A stretch of 64,000 bases of DNA, taken from positions 62,001 to 126,000 of the forward strand of contig JBFMCV010000007.1 in NCBI GenBank assembly GCA_040754335.1. Direction: 5' to 3'. Numbering within the stretch: position 1 is the stretch's first letter; the number at the start of each line of letters is the position of its first letter. Made by a program: the position numbers and the translations under genes. The notes beneath the pieces were generated by a model. That model searched no databases. It was not told the origin of the DNA and worked only from the letters and a program-made list of their open reading frames with translations. This document shows positions 15,417 to 57,649 of the stretch, piece after piece. The DNA comes from Thermodesulfobacteriota bacterium. Its GTDB lineage: Bacteria; Desulfobacterota_D; UBA1144; Nemesobacterales; UBA2774.

Positions 15417-15809
15417 ATGCGTACGAGATTTGAAGTACTTACGACGTCTCTACTTTCTTTAGTCATTTCCTTCAATTTATTACTATACTCTTTACAGCGT
15501 TATTCTCCACCCGAAGCCGACTCTCCTTCGTTCTCCGTACTTTACTGCACATCACATAGCTATGAGCAATATCTGTCAGCAACGATAGAGCTGATATACG
15601 GGGATGAGGGTGAAACCGGGACCGAAAAGCATTGCTTCTGCCATAGCTGCTGCAGCTCGGGTTTCAAATCCGAAATTCCAAAACCCGCAGCCGCTCCTTC
15701 CGCGACGTGCGTAGACAGAAGCCGCTTCCCTATCGAGAACCAGTCCGCCGAATCGGACTATCTCGATAGCAACATCCCTATACGCTCACCCCCGGCTGTC
15801 GTAATTTAG
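15417..15809 (+). CDS. Small Cys/His-rich exported protein, DUF2946-like
   Basis: A 130-codon frame. It begins with a hydrophobic segment (LTTSLLSLVISFNLLLYSLQ) that could be a signal peptide or anchor, has a cysteine cluster HCFCHSCC near residue 72, and ends with IPIRSPPAV. That layout resembles DUF2946-type small proteins often found beside metal-related outer-membrane proteins. No ribosome binding site precedes the ATG. It is followed after ~220 bases by a beta-barrel gene on the same strand. The link to metal handling is inference from the cysteines, the His-rich tail of the neighbour and known contexts of such proteins. Could be a spurious frame. Confidence 0.5.
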   Translation: MRTRFEVLTTSLLSLVISFNLLLYSLQRYSPPEADSPSFSVLYCTSHSYEQYLSATIELIYGDEGETGTEKHCFCHSCCSSGFKSEIPKPAAAPSATCVDRSRFPIENQSAESDYLDSNIPIRSPPAVVI

Positions 15810-15881
15810 CCAAGCTATTAATTGCATATCCAGACGCGGGCATGTCTTAACAAGAGCGCCCTCCCGTGAGCGTCTGTCATT

Positions 15882-15988
15882 TCCGGGCGGATTATCACAG
15901 TGATCTAACCGATCGTTCAATCAACTGTCGGAGCCGGTGAAGGTGCGGAATAAGCACGCTTCAGCCTATGGTGATAGCGCCGCCCGGA
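15882..15988 (+). ncRNA. Candidate structured leader RNA (three-way junction) before the beta-barrel gene
   Basis: A closing stem pairs 15882-15890 with 15980-15988 (9 bp, TCCGGGCGG/CCGCCCGGA) and continues after a small internal loop as 15893-15898 with 15971-15976 (TATCAC/GTGATA). Inside lie a short CCGA...TCGG helix (about 15909-15931) and a strong hairpin TGAAG-GTGC...GCAC-g-CTTCA (15938-15963). The element ends 38 bases before the ATG at 16027. It matches no riboswitch class I know (not TPP, FMN, cobalamin, fluoride or yybP-ykoY). There is no T-run, so it is not a terminator as it stands. Confidence 0.45.
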
Positions 15989-16026
15989 CGGTCTGACCTA
16001 ACTTATACACAGGGAGAAATATTACT

Positions 16027-17061
16027 ATGAAAGCCAATGCAGCAATCACAATAATAGCAATGCTGTGTCTGTTATCGGTTTTATCATTTTCGAACGAGAC
16101 GGCTGCTCAGCTCTGGGACTCCGACCGGCCCGACGCGAACGCTCCGGCCGGGGTCATGGACGACCACGTCCACAGGGCGGGGCACTGGATGCTGAGTTAC
16201 AGGTTCATGTATATGAGCATGGAGGGGTTGAGAAACGGAACGCATAAAGTGAGCAACCGGGAGGCGCTCGAGAAATACATGATGATCCCGACGAAGATGG
16301 ACGAACAGATGCACATGTTCGGGATCATGTACGCGCCGACGGACTCGATAAACGTAATGGCCATGATACCCTACGTCAGGAAATCGATGACCCACGTAAA
16401 CCGGATGGGGGAGCACTCAAGCGTAACCAACGACGGGCTGGGCGACGTGTCGATAACCACCATATTCAAAATATTCGACGCGCACAGGCAGAGGGTCCAG
16501 CTTAATGCCGGACTGAGCTTTCCGACAGGATCTATAGATGAAAGGGGCTCCTACGATATGCAGCTGGGCTCGGGGACGTTAGACCTGATTCCGGGGATCA
16601 CTTATCTCGGCCAATACGGGAGGTTCTCCTGGGGAGCGCAGGCGAGCGGGGTAATCAGGATCGCCGAGAACAAAAAGGATTATGCGCTCGGGGACAGGCT
16701 CGACGCGACTGCATGGGGGGCGTGGGACTGGTTTAACTGGATAAGCACCTCGGCGAGGGCGGACTGGCAGTCGTGGGGGAACGTAAACGGCGCGAACCCC
16801 GCTCTCAACCCTGAAATGATGCCATGCGCAGACCCCGATCTCCAGGGAGGAGACAGGCTCGACCTGCTGCTCGGCGTCAACTTCTACGTGCTGGAGGGAC
16901 CTGCGTTCATAAAAGGGCAGAGGCTCTTCGCCGAATTCGGCCTCCCGGTCTATCAGAACCTCGACGGGCCGCAGTTAGAGACGGATTGGGTGCTGTGGCT
17001 CGGGTGGCAGTACGGCTGGTCCTTCGGAGGAAAGCACCACGGGCACAAGGGACACCATTGA
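16027..17061 (+). CDS. Outer-membrane beta-barrel, transporter-like (phenol_MetA_deg type)
   Basis: A 344-residue protein with a signal peptide (hydrophobic residues ~6-22, likely cleavage after TAA near residue 28). It is followed by alternating beta-strand sequence rich in Tyr, Trp, Gly and Met, as in the MetA-pathway/transporter-like outer membrane family (YAPTDSINVMAMIPYVRKSM, TNDGLGDVSITTIFK, LNAGLSFPTGS, FAEFGLPVYQNLDGPQLETDW). The tail GGKHHGHKGHH is His-rich, and the N-terminal part is rich in Met and His (DDHVHRAGHW), which hints at copper or other metal contact. GGGAG 10 bases before the ATG supports the start. A structured leader candidate precedes it. Substrate unknown. Confidence 0.8.
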   Translation: MKANAAITIIAMLCLLSVLSFSNETAAQLWDSDRPDANAPAGVMDDHVHRAGHWMLSYRFMYMSMEGLRNGTHKVSNREALEKYMMIPTKMDEQMHMFGIMYAPTDSINVMAMIPYVRKSMTHVNRMGEHSSVTNDGLGDVSITTIFKIFDAHRQRVQLNAGLSFPTGSIDERGSYDMQLGSGTLDLIPGITYLGQYGRFSWGAQASGVIRIAENKKDYALGDRLDATAWGAWDWFNWISTSARADWQSWGNVNGANPALNPEMMPCADPDLQGGDRLDLLLGVNFYVLEGPAFIKGQRLFAEFGLPVYQNLDGPQLETDWVLWLGWQYGWSFGGKHHGHKGHH

Positions 17062-17234
17062 CAGTCGTCCATTGAAAACCGTAACACCGGCCGGGGAAGA
17101 CCTCTCTTTTCCAGCCGGCGTTACAACATCTATGTAAAAATAAAGTATTTTCAGTTAATATAGGTTTAGCGGGAAGCGGCCGGCTGTAGCGTATTATTTT
17201 TAACCATTAACCAACTACTATGGAGGATAGGATC

Positions 17235-18104
17235 ATGGTTAAATTACTGAGCAGGCATTCGATCTTATTAATAATACTAGTTATGGCCTCATTCATGTCG
17301 TACGGTTTTTGGGGATGCGACAGCGGGGGCGGCGGGGGCGGCGGCAACAAGACCAGGATCAACGGAACGGTGCTCGAGGTCGTAACCGGCTCGGTATCAG
17401 ACATAAAGGTCACCGTCTTTAACAGTAATGATAAAAAGATTGACTCAACAAGAACCAACCAGCTTGGTCAATTCACTCTCAGATTCAAGCCCAACGCGGA
17501 TACAGTAAAAATAGAGTTCGAAGGGTCCAATTTCACGCTTTCCAGGTTCATCGCCGTTACACGGGACAGCGATGTGATATTCAACGTGACGCTGATAGTA
17601 TCGCCCGGGGAGATCATTGTCAACGACTGGACAGTATTTCAGGACCCGATACGCGGCGATGGCACGGACGAGTTTTCATTCGACTCCCTCGAAGCCGACT
17701 TCGAGATAGACGGGGACGGGAACACCTGCATCAGGTCCCACGGGGAAAGCCTCGTCGAGATAACGGCGAGGAGCATAACACTCAGCGACTGCAATATAGG
17801 AATAGATACACAGGGCTCGGGATTCGTCCTTCTCGAAGCCGATTTCGATATTACCATTAGCGCCAACAAGGACGCCATAAAGACGAGCAACGAATCGTTC
17901 GTCAGGGTCACACAGACCGTCTCGCCGATAGATAACAACATATTTATCACGTCTCTCAGGGAAAACGGAATAAAGGCAGCAGGCTCATCCGAGGTCGAAA
18001 TCGATCCCCAGAACGACTGCTCTATAAGCGGCGCGAAGTCGGCGATAAACCAGTCGGGCTCATCCGTGGTCGATCCCGACGGATGTACGCTCGTCGACGG
18101 ATGA
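17235..18104 (+). CDS. Lipoprotein with carboxypeptidase-regulatory-like domain and beta-repeat region
   Basis: The start at 17235 is set by GGAGGA 9 bases upstream; an ATG at 17220 lies before this site. A type II signal peptide ends at YGFWGC, and the lipidated Cys is followed by a Gly-rich spacer. Residues ~45-115 look like a carboxypeptidase-regulatory/SpaA-like beta-sandwich (INGTVLEVVTGSVSDIKVTVFN, TNQLGQFTLRF). The remainder consists of repeating short beta-strand units (ESLVEITARSITLSDCNIGI, GSGFVLLEADFDITIS, NESFVRVTQ) reminiscent of a parallel beta-helix with a few Cys. Surface-attached; function unknown. Codon use matches neighbours. Confidence 0.85.
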   Translation: MVKLLSRHSILLIILVMASFMSYGFWGCDSGGGGGGGNKTRINGTVLEVVTGSVSDIKVTVFNSNDKKIDSTRTNQLGQFTLRFKPNADTVKIEFEGSNFTLSRFIAVTRDSDVIFNVTLIVSPGEIIVNDWTVFQDPIRGDGTDEFSFDSLEADFEIDGDGNTCIRSHGESLVEITARSITLSDCNIGIDTQGSGFVLLEADFDITISANKDAIKTSNESFVRVTQTVSPIDNNIFITSLRENGIKAAGSSEVEIDPQNDCSISGAKSAINQSGSSVVDPDGCTLVDG

Positions 18105-18384
18105 GGCGGGAGGCCCCTTCATCGCGGGCCTTCGCAGAAGTCTATACAATCAGTCAACTGCGACCTGTGCTTCTCAATTTGGCTTTTGTAACGACGATAC
18201 GAAGTAATTTCTGCGTTCGTGCTCTTAACCATTAGCGACCGATTCGCTTTGTCTTCTGCAGCGGTTTAGCCGAACATTCGCATTGAAGCACTTAATCCAA
18301 GAGGTCCGGTTGTTCGCTCGCTCACAACCGTTACTTGCTCTAAATTGTTGCTTAGGACTGTTGTTCGGGAATGACTAAAAAGAT

Positions 18385-18421
18385 AAATCCCCCTTACTCC
18401 CCCTTTTTCTAAGGGGGAAAT
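18385..18421. repeat. C-rich/G-rich palindrome
   Basis: AAATCCCCCTTACT then CCCCCTT-TTTCT-AAGGGGG and AAATTAAA. Same family as 7495 and 61271. Confidence 0.6.
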
Positions 18422-18489
18422 TAAATGACAAAAACAAATGTGAGATAGCGGCTGTTCCTGCAGAACCTCGCACAGACAGATAAAAAATA

Positions 18490-18512
18490 TCGCGGCTGGA
18501 AGCCGCTCCTAC
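18490..18512 (-). repeat. REP-like element, copy 4
   Basis: Plus-strand GCGGCTGGAAGCCGC followed by TCCTAC. Confidence 0.7.
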
Positions 18513-19118
18513 AGATTTAAAAGAGAGATGCTGTAACGAGTTCAGCATGACAAAATTATTTTAATGTACCCCCTCACCCTATCCCTAATTTGGTTTAGAA
18601 GATATTGAGCCTGAAGTTGATGTACTTAATTGCCTCTGTTCAGAAGGGACCGATTGCTCTTATTCATCGCAACCGTTCCTCGCTGGGGAGAGGAAAAACA
18701 AGGATACCTCTTTCGACAACTTTCCGGCTTCGCTTCGGACTCCGCTATCCTCCTATGCTAAAGCTCCCGTCTTCGCGAAGCCCGCTTCGGCGGGCGAAGG
18801 AAGGTTGGGGGGGACGAGACGCCGGACGGTCCGGCTTCGCTGTGCTACGCCGTGACAAACAACCGACTTCGCTCTTCGGGCTTCGACGGACAGGGGGCGA
18901 ACGGGTCTTGTCTCGCTGCCGGCATACCCAGAAGAGATACTGTCGGATCATATGCCCGGCATGTGCGTGCTTCGACACGCTCAGGGCGAACGGGTGGGGG
19001 GTGCGGCGTATTGTGTGCCGCCAATTCTGTAATGTCGGGAAAGACAAAAATTGGCGCCGAAGCGGGATGAGTCACCCGCGGGTGTTCATACGCCGCGGAT
19101 TCTACACTGCACAAGGCT

Positions 19119-56790: not shown

Positions 56791-57016
56791 ACATGATACA
56801 TGAGGAAGGATGCGGGATACAGTGTGCGGGATTGAGGATTTAAAGAAATGGATTCCCGATAAAGACACCAAGGAATGACGATTTAAAAGACGAGATTGCC
56901 GCGGTCGCAGTATTCATCAGGTATCGAGCATAGATAACTTGCTTCATTGCAATCAACCAGGGGCAACCGGTTCTTACGCACGCTCAGAACCGTTCCTCGC
57001 AAAGACAGACAACTAC

Positions 57017-57056
57017 AAATCCTCCCTAACCCTCCTTTGCCAAAGGAGGGAATTAA
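57017..57056. repeat. C-rich/G-rich palindrome
   Basis: AAATCCTCCCTAAC then CCTCCTTT-GCC-AAAGGAGG and GAATTAAC; nearest to the 7495 copy. Confidence 0.6.
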
Positions 57057-57240
57057 CTGCAAAGGATGAGACTGCCGCGGCTCCTGCACATGAGGTATCT
57101 GCTAGGGAAGACCCGTTCATGCTTCGACCCTTCGACTTTGCTCAGGACAGGCGTGCAGATTAGCATTATCCTGTCTTCAGTGTTTGGCGAAATGTAAGAA
57201 GTGACAGAAGAATCGGATATAAGCGCAGATTCTGCGCCTC

Positions 57241-57331
57241 AGCACGAACGGGTTTGTTGGTTGCAGTATTAAGCAGAGGATACGCGGAGGGATCGTATAT
57301 GAGCGCAGGTTCCGCGCCTCAGTGCGAACGG
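57241..57331. repeat. 91-bp dispersed repeat (copy D)
   Basis: 81 of 91 bases identical to 32601-32691 without gaps. The dyad here is GCGCAGG-T-TCCGCGC (57303-57317). A second core just upstream, GCGCAGA-T-TCTGCGC at 57223-57237 (copy C), is a perfect 7-bp-arm dyad. Confidence 0.8.
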
Positions 57332-57360
57332 GTATGGTTGAATTAGTGAATGAAAAGTAA

Positions 57361-57402
57361 CACCCCCCACCCTTAACCCTCCCCCCTTAAGGGGGAGGGA
57401 AG
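57361..57402. repeat. C-rich/G-rich palindrome
   Basis: CCCACCCTTAACC then CCTCCCCCCTTAAGGGGGAGG, a near-perfect palindrome around TTAA. Confidence 0.55.
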
Positions 57403-57477
57403 TGAAAAGAAAGGCAAGATTGCCGCGGTCGCCTTGCTCCCTCGCAAAGACAGATCAGATGACAGAAATGATAAAGA

Positions 57478-57514
57478 AAAATCCCCCTAAATCCCCCTTT
57501 AGAAAGGGGGAAAA
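57478..57514. repeat. C-rich/G-rich palindrome
   Basis: AAATCCCCCTAAAT then CCCCCTTT-AG-AAAGGGGG and AAAA. Confidence 0.6.
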
Positions 57515-57542
57515 GGTAAAACGACAGGCTGTAAGAGATAGT

Positions 57543-57583
57543 AAAAAAAAAGCCGGGAGAATCAGTTTCCTGACTCTCCCGGC
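57543..57583 (-). terminator. Strong Rho-independent terminator of the secreted-protein genes
   Basis: On the minus strand GCCGGGAGA-g-TCAG pairs with CTGA-t-TCTCCCGGC around a GAAA loop (57552-57583), followed by nine T (57551-57543). A second GC-rich hairpin (GGGGAGGCGGGC...CCGCCCCCC) lies just before it at about 57607-57640. Confidence 0.92.
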
Positions 57584-57649
57584 GTTAAGCTGTTTCAGAA
57601 TTAAAGCAGGGGGGCGGACGTAAAGCCCGCCTCCCCGCAGTTTGAATCC

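Follow-up and report, generated by a model that had tools for sequence, protein, structure and literature searches.

The operon described here lies in the window, that is, the whole 64,000-nucleotide stretch of DNA that was analysed. The explanation that we favour with moderate confidence, drawn by analogy with characterised systems, is that the operon is headed by a CruR/CutF-like arrest-peptide upstream open reading frame (uORF), and that ribosome arrest would free the Shine-Dalgarno sequence (SD) of the next gene, otherwise masked by the last codons of the uORF. The conserved RNA feature of these operons is a predicted long-range pairing of this SD with the uORF's last codons around R-S/A-P-P. 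The features of the operon in the window are the following.

15417..15809, + strand: uORF, 130 aa, Cys-rich, with an N-terminal hydrophobic segment and a C-terminal RSPP; candidate CruR/CutF-like arrest peptide
15633..15653, + strand: C-F-C-H-S-C-C codons including CxxC (residues 75-78); this Cys cluster does not vary within the family and may be a metal site
15775..15779, + strand: putative anti-SD UCCCU within the uORF; computed, with a probability that varies with context
15783..15794, + strand: R-S-P-P codons; predicted site of arrest, for which the CruR toeprints suggest 15789-15791 as the P-site
15831..15876, + strand: first intercistronic hairpin, arms CAGACGC/GCGTCTG
15882..15988, + strand: closing stem around two helices; spacer fold between the cistrons, found in one genome, computed, not conserved
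16011..16016, + strand: SD of the barrel gene, AGGGAG
16027..17061, + strand: gene for a 344-aa outer-membrane beta-barrel rich in Met and His, with a COG4313-channel-like fold

The Cys-rich uORF and its downstream genes

The uORF is the first of a series of genes on the same strand. Its hydrophobic segment spans residues 12-26, its CxxC is C75-H-S-C78, and its RSPP, with the two prolines at residues 125-126, ends 4 residues from the C-terminus and lies 44 residues from the CxxC. In the uORF family both a C-x-C-x-x-C-C cluster and P-x-R-S-P-P near the C-terminus are invariant, and sister ORFs carry RAPP where the window uORF has RSPP. Counterparts of the uORF precede the barrel gene throughout the family, an RxPP-ending ORF is present upstream of 20 of the 75 barrel homologs, compared with 1-3 at control positions, and three same-genus genomes are without both the barrel and the uORF (genus, family and order are here the labels given by the search tool). 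Among the ORFs upstream of barrel homologs that carry both motifs, which come from several phyla, the distance from CxxC to RxPP is 42-47 residues, or 41 when counted from a CxxxC. In PMC9973294 CutF-like proteins were selected by a length of <150 aa, PP among the 15 C-terminal residues, a signal peptide, and a gene on the same strand no more than 1000 nt away; the window uORF has the size (130 aa), the PP position and the same-strand gene (gap 217 nt) of this rule set. PF11162 (DUF2946) gave no match to the window protein up to an E-value of 10, and it was matched weakly by 8 of the 20 ORFs of alignment A3 (best E 5.4e-5); the window protein is therefore named CruR/CutF-like and not filed in DUF2946. 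No plasmid relatives of the uORF were found. Judged from its sequence features, ORF 15417-15809 is very probably a CruR/CutF-like regulator.

Two kinds of variant were observed among the more distant upstream ORFs. In two order-level loci (L096 and L097), with gaps of 35-47 nt, the uORFs retain RAPP and the SD pairing and have lost the CxxC. In four Nitrospirae-type loci (L158, L159, L162 and L163) barrel-family genes are preceded by ORFs some 100 aa long, carrying His-rich motifs and a CxxxC 41 residues before RAPP, possibly another sensor variant.

The predicted structure of the barrel protein is an outer-membrane channel (pLDDT 83), for which Foldseek returned the COG4313 channel PDB 4rl8 (E 5.9e-12, TM 0.62/0.78, about 10% identity); no sequence relative was found among the solved structures of the PDB. 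The family has no Pfam match above cut-off, PF13557 (MetA type) scoring 18.3 bits against a 22-bit cut-off. It is very widespread, with at least 488 relatives in many phyla (window 16027-17061; loci L092-L171) and no viral copies found, and M44, H47, H49, M55, M63, M65, M91, H96, M97, M101, M113 and M121 are invariant across phyla. The modelled fold and the invariant Met and His residues fit a candidate copper role. The third same-strand gene, at 17220-18104, encodes a lipoprotein-like product that contains a run rich in Gly and matches CarboxypepD_reg weakly (PF13620, E 6e-7, below cut-off); in several members of the family the start of a comparable Gly-rich lipoprotein was seen behind the barrel.

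Furthermore, a profile of the family uORF identified seven further copies in relatives without this barrel. The genes downstream of the L189, L192 and L193 uORFs are TonB-dependent receptors, the operons downstream of L187 and L190 include CopC, and the gene downstream of L188 and L191 is another barrel; these calls are based on Pfam for L189 and L193 (Plug), L187 and L190 (CopC) and L191 (PF13557, below cut-off), while the L192 and L188 genes were assigned through their likeness to sister loci. CopC and receptors of the TonB type both figure among the partners reported for CruR and CutF-like proteins. The present analysis links a widespread, uncharacterised Met/His-rich barrel family to copper-type control.

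Predicted pairing of the SD with the uORF tail

When the operon head was folded in silico, the barrel SD paired with the end of the uORF. As a measure we used the probability of pairing between the downstream SD and the 48 nt at the 3′ end of the uORF, calculated in a first set of 12 barrel operons (family and order level) and in a second set made of the 7 operons found through the uORF, whose RNA had not been inspected beforehand. In the first set the pairing was ≥0.66 in 10 of 12 operons, the other two being the window (0.43) and G008 (0.05), and in the second it was 0.88-1.00 in all 7, giving 17 of 19 operons at ≥0.66 for both sets together. For comparison, 53 ordinary gene pairs lying on one strand of the source genome, the window's own pair included, had a mean of 0.04, with 2% at ≥0.66. 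Twelve more distant loci, from other phyla and with uncertain starts, gave a mixed result.

Pro-Pro codons are C-rich, and for this reason the observed pairing was compared with that of synonymous recodings, drawn from the codon usage of each operon itself. The synonymous shuffles averaged 0.39, well above the 0.04 of ordinary pairs, and none of 80 pooled recodings was as strong as the observed sequences; recodings as strong numbered 5 of 2000 in the first set, for context-free duplexes, and 0 of 4000 in the second. Swapping the SDs between operons produced weaker duplexes, with 29 of 20000 permutations as strong as the cognate arrangement. Since the operons are phylogenetically related, these tests overstate independence and the counts are not independent trials. 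Apart from that of the window, each helix comprises 7-15 pairs; most of them reach past the SD core, and the register differs between operons. In L188 GUUCUCCUCC is paired with GGAGGAGAAC, and in G011 CCUCCGUU with AACGGAGG. In 15 of 19 operons the pairing held whichever stretch was folded (mean ≥0.69); it varied with the folding context in G014 and G006, and it was missing in G008. When the uORF was masked in silico, the SD found other partners in several operons. On these models, masking of the SD by the uORF tail is rather probably used in the lineage of the window.

The predicted helix of the window joins UCCCU 15775-15779 to AGGGA 16011-16015 across the gap; it has 5 bp, and its probability ranged from 0.00 to 0.93 depending on the stretch folded. 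The window SD was paired overall at 0.59-0.95, with a partner that changed with context, and in the SD swap its cognate pairing was no better than non-cognate ones (rank 10 of 19). For the window taken singly we are in two minds and lean slightly towards doubt as to whether SD masking would operate in the way drawn here.

The inverted repeat between the two cistrons

The preliminary description had drawn attention to the element at 15882-15988, proposing it as a candidate new structured leader RNA placed before the barrel gene. The anatomy that it gave is accurate: the outer arms (15882-15890/15980-15988) are complementary at 9 of 9 positions and the inner arms (15893-15898/15971-15976) at 6 of 6, the computed fold contains two enclosed helices with a hairpin near 15938-15963, and the element ends 38 bases before the barrel ATG. 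The closing stem had a probability of 0.97-0.99 across all folding contexts tried, and the 127-nt fold around it reached -49.4 kcal/mol (z -2.8), equalled or bettered by 2 of 200 dinucleotide shuffles. The claim that such complementarity is improbable by chance holds for the 9+6 composite, which was absent from 3000 shuffles of the 15810-16026 gap, and fails for a lone perfect 9-bp inverted repeat (spacer 20-120 nt), a common finding present in 24 of 177 intergenic gaps. In the background sample, made of 400 kb of genome stretches plus the window (464 kb), the composite occurred in 4 of 2134 tiles of 217 nt and in 3 of the 177 intergenic gaps. The composite is thus rare, but the gap ranks 18 of 165 by fold z-score among the gaps of the genome and its minus strand folds as well as the plus strand, so that 15882-15988 is a real inverted repeat whose RNA fold is unexceptional for its source genome. 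No + strand promoter-like site and no + strand intrinsic terminator were called in the 15810-16026 gap. Because of the missing promoter call, the fold probably sits between two cistrons rather than in a 5′ leader; a separate barrel promoter inside the gap and an intrinsic-terminator reading of the stem were rejected on these same calls.

Conservation of the fold was sought, as had been proposed, with a covariance model built from the stem, and no ortholog was recovered: among 61 genomes (60 of them relatives) the model matched only itself, and among 92 loci around barrel homologs it again matched only itself, with two further hits at E 3.2 and 5.3. The 3.26-Mb genome contains no second copy of the element, and Rfam gave no match to it. 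Across orthologous leaders, with gaps of 35-244 nt, the pairing of 15882-15988 is not kept; the family-level gaps (124-244 nt) do not align with that of the window and do not retain the pairing, and the order-level gaps (35-59 nt) cannot accommodate the fold. Nor was a common structure found among the gaps of the barrel family, where the best 107-nt windows had z-scores from -0.4 to -3.9 at unrelated places. A riboswitch or other Rfam class was rejected for want of an Rfam match and of any structure conserved before the orthologous genes. A MITE or REP-type repeat was likewise discarded, given the single copy in the genome, the lack of a plasmid match and the lack of a clean target duplication by the arms.

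The preliminary description had itself named orthologous leaders without the pairing as what would count against it, and as such leaders are what was found, a new leader-RNA class is not supported; on the sequences compared, 15882-15988 is not a conserved class of this kind. That the fold itself controls the barrel, as a leader RNA responding to metal or stress, is a reading to which its stability, its place before the barrel gene and its metal-like neighbours lend something, but we regard it as very improbable: besides the unconserved orthologous leaders, the short order-level gaps and the negative Rfam result, a candidate protein sensor lies directly upstream of the fold, and the reading appears largely refuted by the absent conservation. 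As for the accompanying hint taken from the neighbours, a metal signal through the Cys-rich one is supported, though with the nascent peptide and not the folded RNA as the likely sensor. That the stem is a repeat, or the relic of a mobile element with terminal inverted repeats, would agree with a symmetry between strands and with the repeat-like hairpins included among the few other composite repeats of the sampled 464 kb; the stem being single copy, with no plasmid match and no target duplication adjoining the arms, we consider this extremely improbable. Returning to an arrest peptide with SD masking, the stem was altered in silico in a single folding context, where these computed effects were obtained: the SD pairing of the window, 0.58 with the native stem, fell to 0.13 when the 5′ arm was broken and to 0.41 when the 3′ arm was; it was 0.62 with the helix restored and 0.60 with the element deleted, and shuffled elements averaged 0.15. 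This suggested a stem that does not compete for the pairing partners, and in these models it behaves as a self-contained spacer not required for the pairing.

Other structures were seen in the sampled sequence. Its strongest intergenic fold is a near-perfect hairpin of >20 bp (TCGCGGCTGGAAGCCGCTCCTAC...), REP-like in look, at 17500-17580 of L072 (G000:C1), and the second strongest is a very strong hairpin beside an A run at 57552-57583 of the window, likely a minus-strand intrinsic terminator. The intergenic regions 56872-57649 and 18105-18604 of the window contain repeated motifs, e.g., gattgccgcggtcgc and ccccctaaatccccct...aaaggggga, which resemble dispersed repeats.

Proposed mechanism and comparison with known arrest peptides

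In the mechanism that we propose, the exported Cys-rich nascent peptide would sense copper or a similar metal through its CxxC cluster, and this would alter the duration of ribosome arrest on RSPP (P-site 15789-15791). With no ribosome on RSPP, the last codons of the uORF would act as an anti-SD, pair with the barrel SD and keep the barrel off, whereas an arrested ribosome would cover the anti-SD codons and leave the SD free for a second ribosome to start barrel translation. The footprint of an arrested ribosome reaches about 15 nt upstream, so that from this P-site 15775-15779 would be just covered. Copper might prolong the arrest, as for CutF, with the barrel on, or relieve it, as for CruR, with the barrel off. 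The 15882-15988 element would be a local lineage-specific fold which at most stops the gap from competing for the partners and brings these nearer. The likely metal sensor is the nascent Cys-rich peptide and not a folded RNA; the arrest, the copper sensing, the switch and its functioning in the window are what we infer from the known systems.

Two other explanations of the operon bear on this. In a CruR-type Rho switch the arrested ribosome would shield a Rho site and copper would relieve the arrest, leading to Rho termination in the gap, while the SD pairing would be incidental and the gap structure would merely slow RNA polymerase. This is the mechanism shown for CruR, whose gap of 162 nt is likewise long and structured (PMC9426467), and both the 217-nt gap and the uORF anatomy of the window match; we nevertheless think it rather unlikely, as it leaves the codon-level SD pairing in relatives unexplained and as the most pronounced C>G bubble in the head of the operon, rejected as a special feature, is ordinary, being reached by 26% of genome segments. 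It is more improbable still that the uORF encodes an ordinary small exported Cys-rich protein, e.g., a periplasmic copper chaperone, with a structural RxPP and an SD pairing that is a by-product of C-rich Pro codons. Pro-Pro codons do lift the pairing by themselves (0.39 vs. 0.04), but the observed pairing exceeds that of the synonymous recodings, CxxC and RxPP are spaced as in CruR (44 vs. 45), and RxPP is avoided in proteomes save near the C-terminus of arrest peptides (PMC12992588). RxPP arrest that unmasks a downstream SD, by analogy with SecM, CutF and uDF_RQH, is probably the better account.

The closest relative in anatomy is CruR of Bordetella pertussis (cruR-bfrG/crtA-bp2921; DUF2946), where CxxC and RAPP are 45 residues apart, within 1-2 residues (PMC9426467, PMC12992588). 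As in CruR, the window uORF is small, putatively exported and probably first in its operon, with a CxxC, an RxPP near the C-terminus at a spacing of 44 against 45, a long gap and an outer-membrane gene downstream. CruR toeprints place the first Pro codon of the motif in the P-site at arrest, and RSPP, found in the window uORF instead of the RAPP of CruR, is a reported arrest-permissive variant (PMC12992588). The two differ in that the window protein has no PF11162 match, in that a TonB receptor lies downstream of CruR and a small barrel in the window (relatives of the uORF do have TonB receptors), and in that CruR works through Rho, whereas SD masking through uORF codons is proposed here. CutF of Rhodobacter capsulatus (cutFOG) is likewise a Cys-motif uORF with a proline-rich end, acting as the sensor that the window uORF is proposed to be, and its stalling frees the masked SD of the next gene, as proposed for the window; in CutF, however, one stem-loop in a gap of 40 bp both hides the SD and contains the anti-SD (PMC9973294), whereas here the anti-SD would be in the arrest-motif codons of the uORF, with a gap of 124-401 nt in most operons. 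For the barrel, the COG4313 channel (PDB 4rl8) has the fold in common at about 10% identity, the invariant Met and His residues being a feature of the window barrel family. What is known of metal-sensing arrest peptides comes from few experiments (CruR, CutF), and a CruR/CutF-like unit is now placed in a Dadabacteria-type lineage.

Arrest on RxPP or RAGP near the C-terminus is also a property of SecM-secA, ApdA, ApdP and uDF_RQH (PMC10987492, PMC10951233, PMC7897499), and in SecM and uDF_RQH it unmasks the SD of the next gene, as we propose for the window; SecM and the RAPP/RGPP peptides differ in sensing protein export and not metal. Tentatively, and with some reserve, we suggest that the R-(S/A)-P-P codons and those around them may be of dual use, encoding the arrest peptide and serving as the anti-SD of the next gene, so that arrest would unmask a start site as far as some 400 nt beyond the uORF with no intergenic hairpin, in one lineage of metal-sensing arrest uORFs and possibly in RxPP arrest peptides more generally. 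A non-exhaustive literature check found no prior description of an anti-SD located in arrest codons. For ApcA, ApdA and ApdP no hairpin hiding the downstream start site was reported by the authors (PMC7897499), and long-range pairing with the arrest codons could be the answer to this absence. The dual-use reading offers a testable view of how an arrested ribosome may switch on a distant gene.
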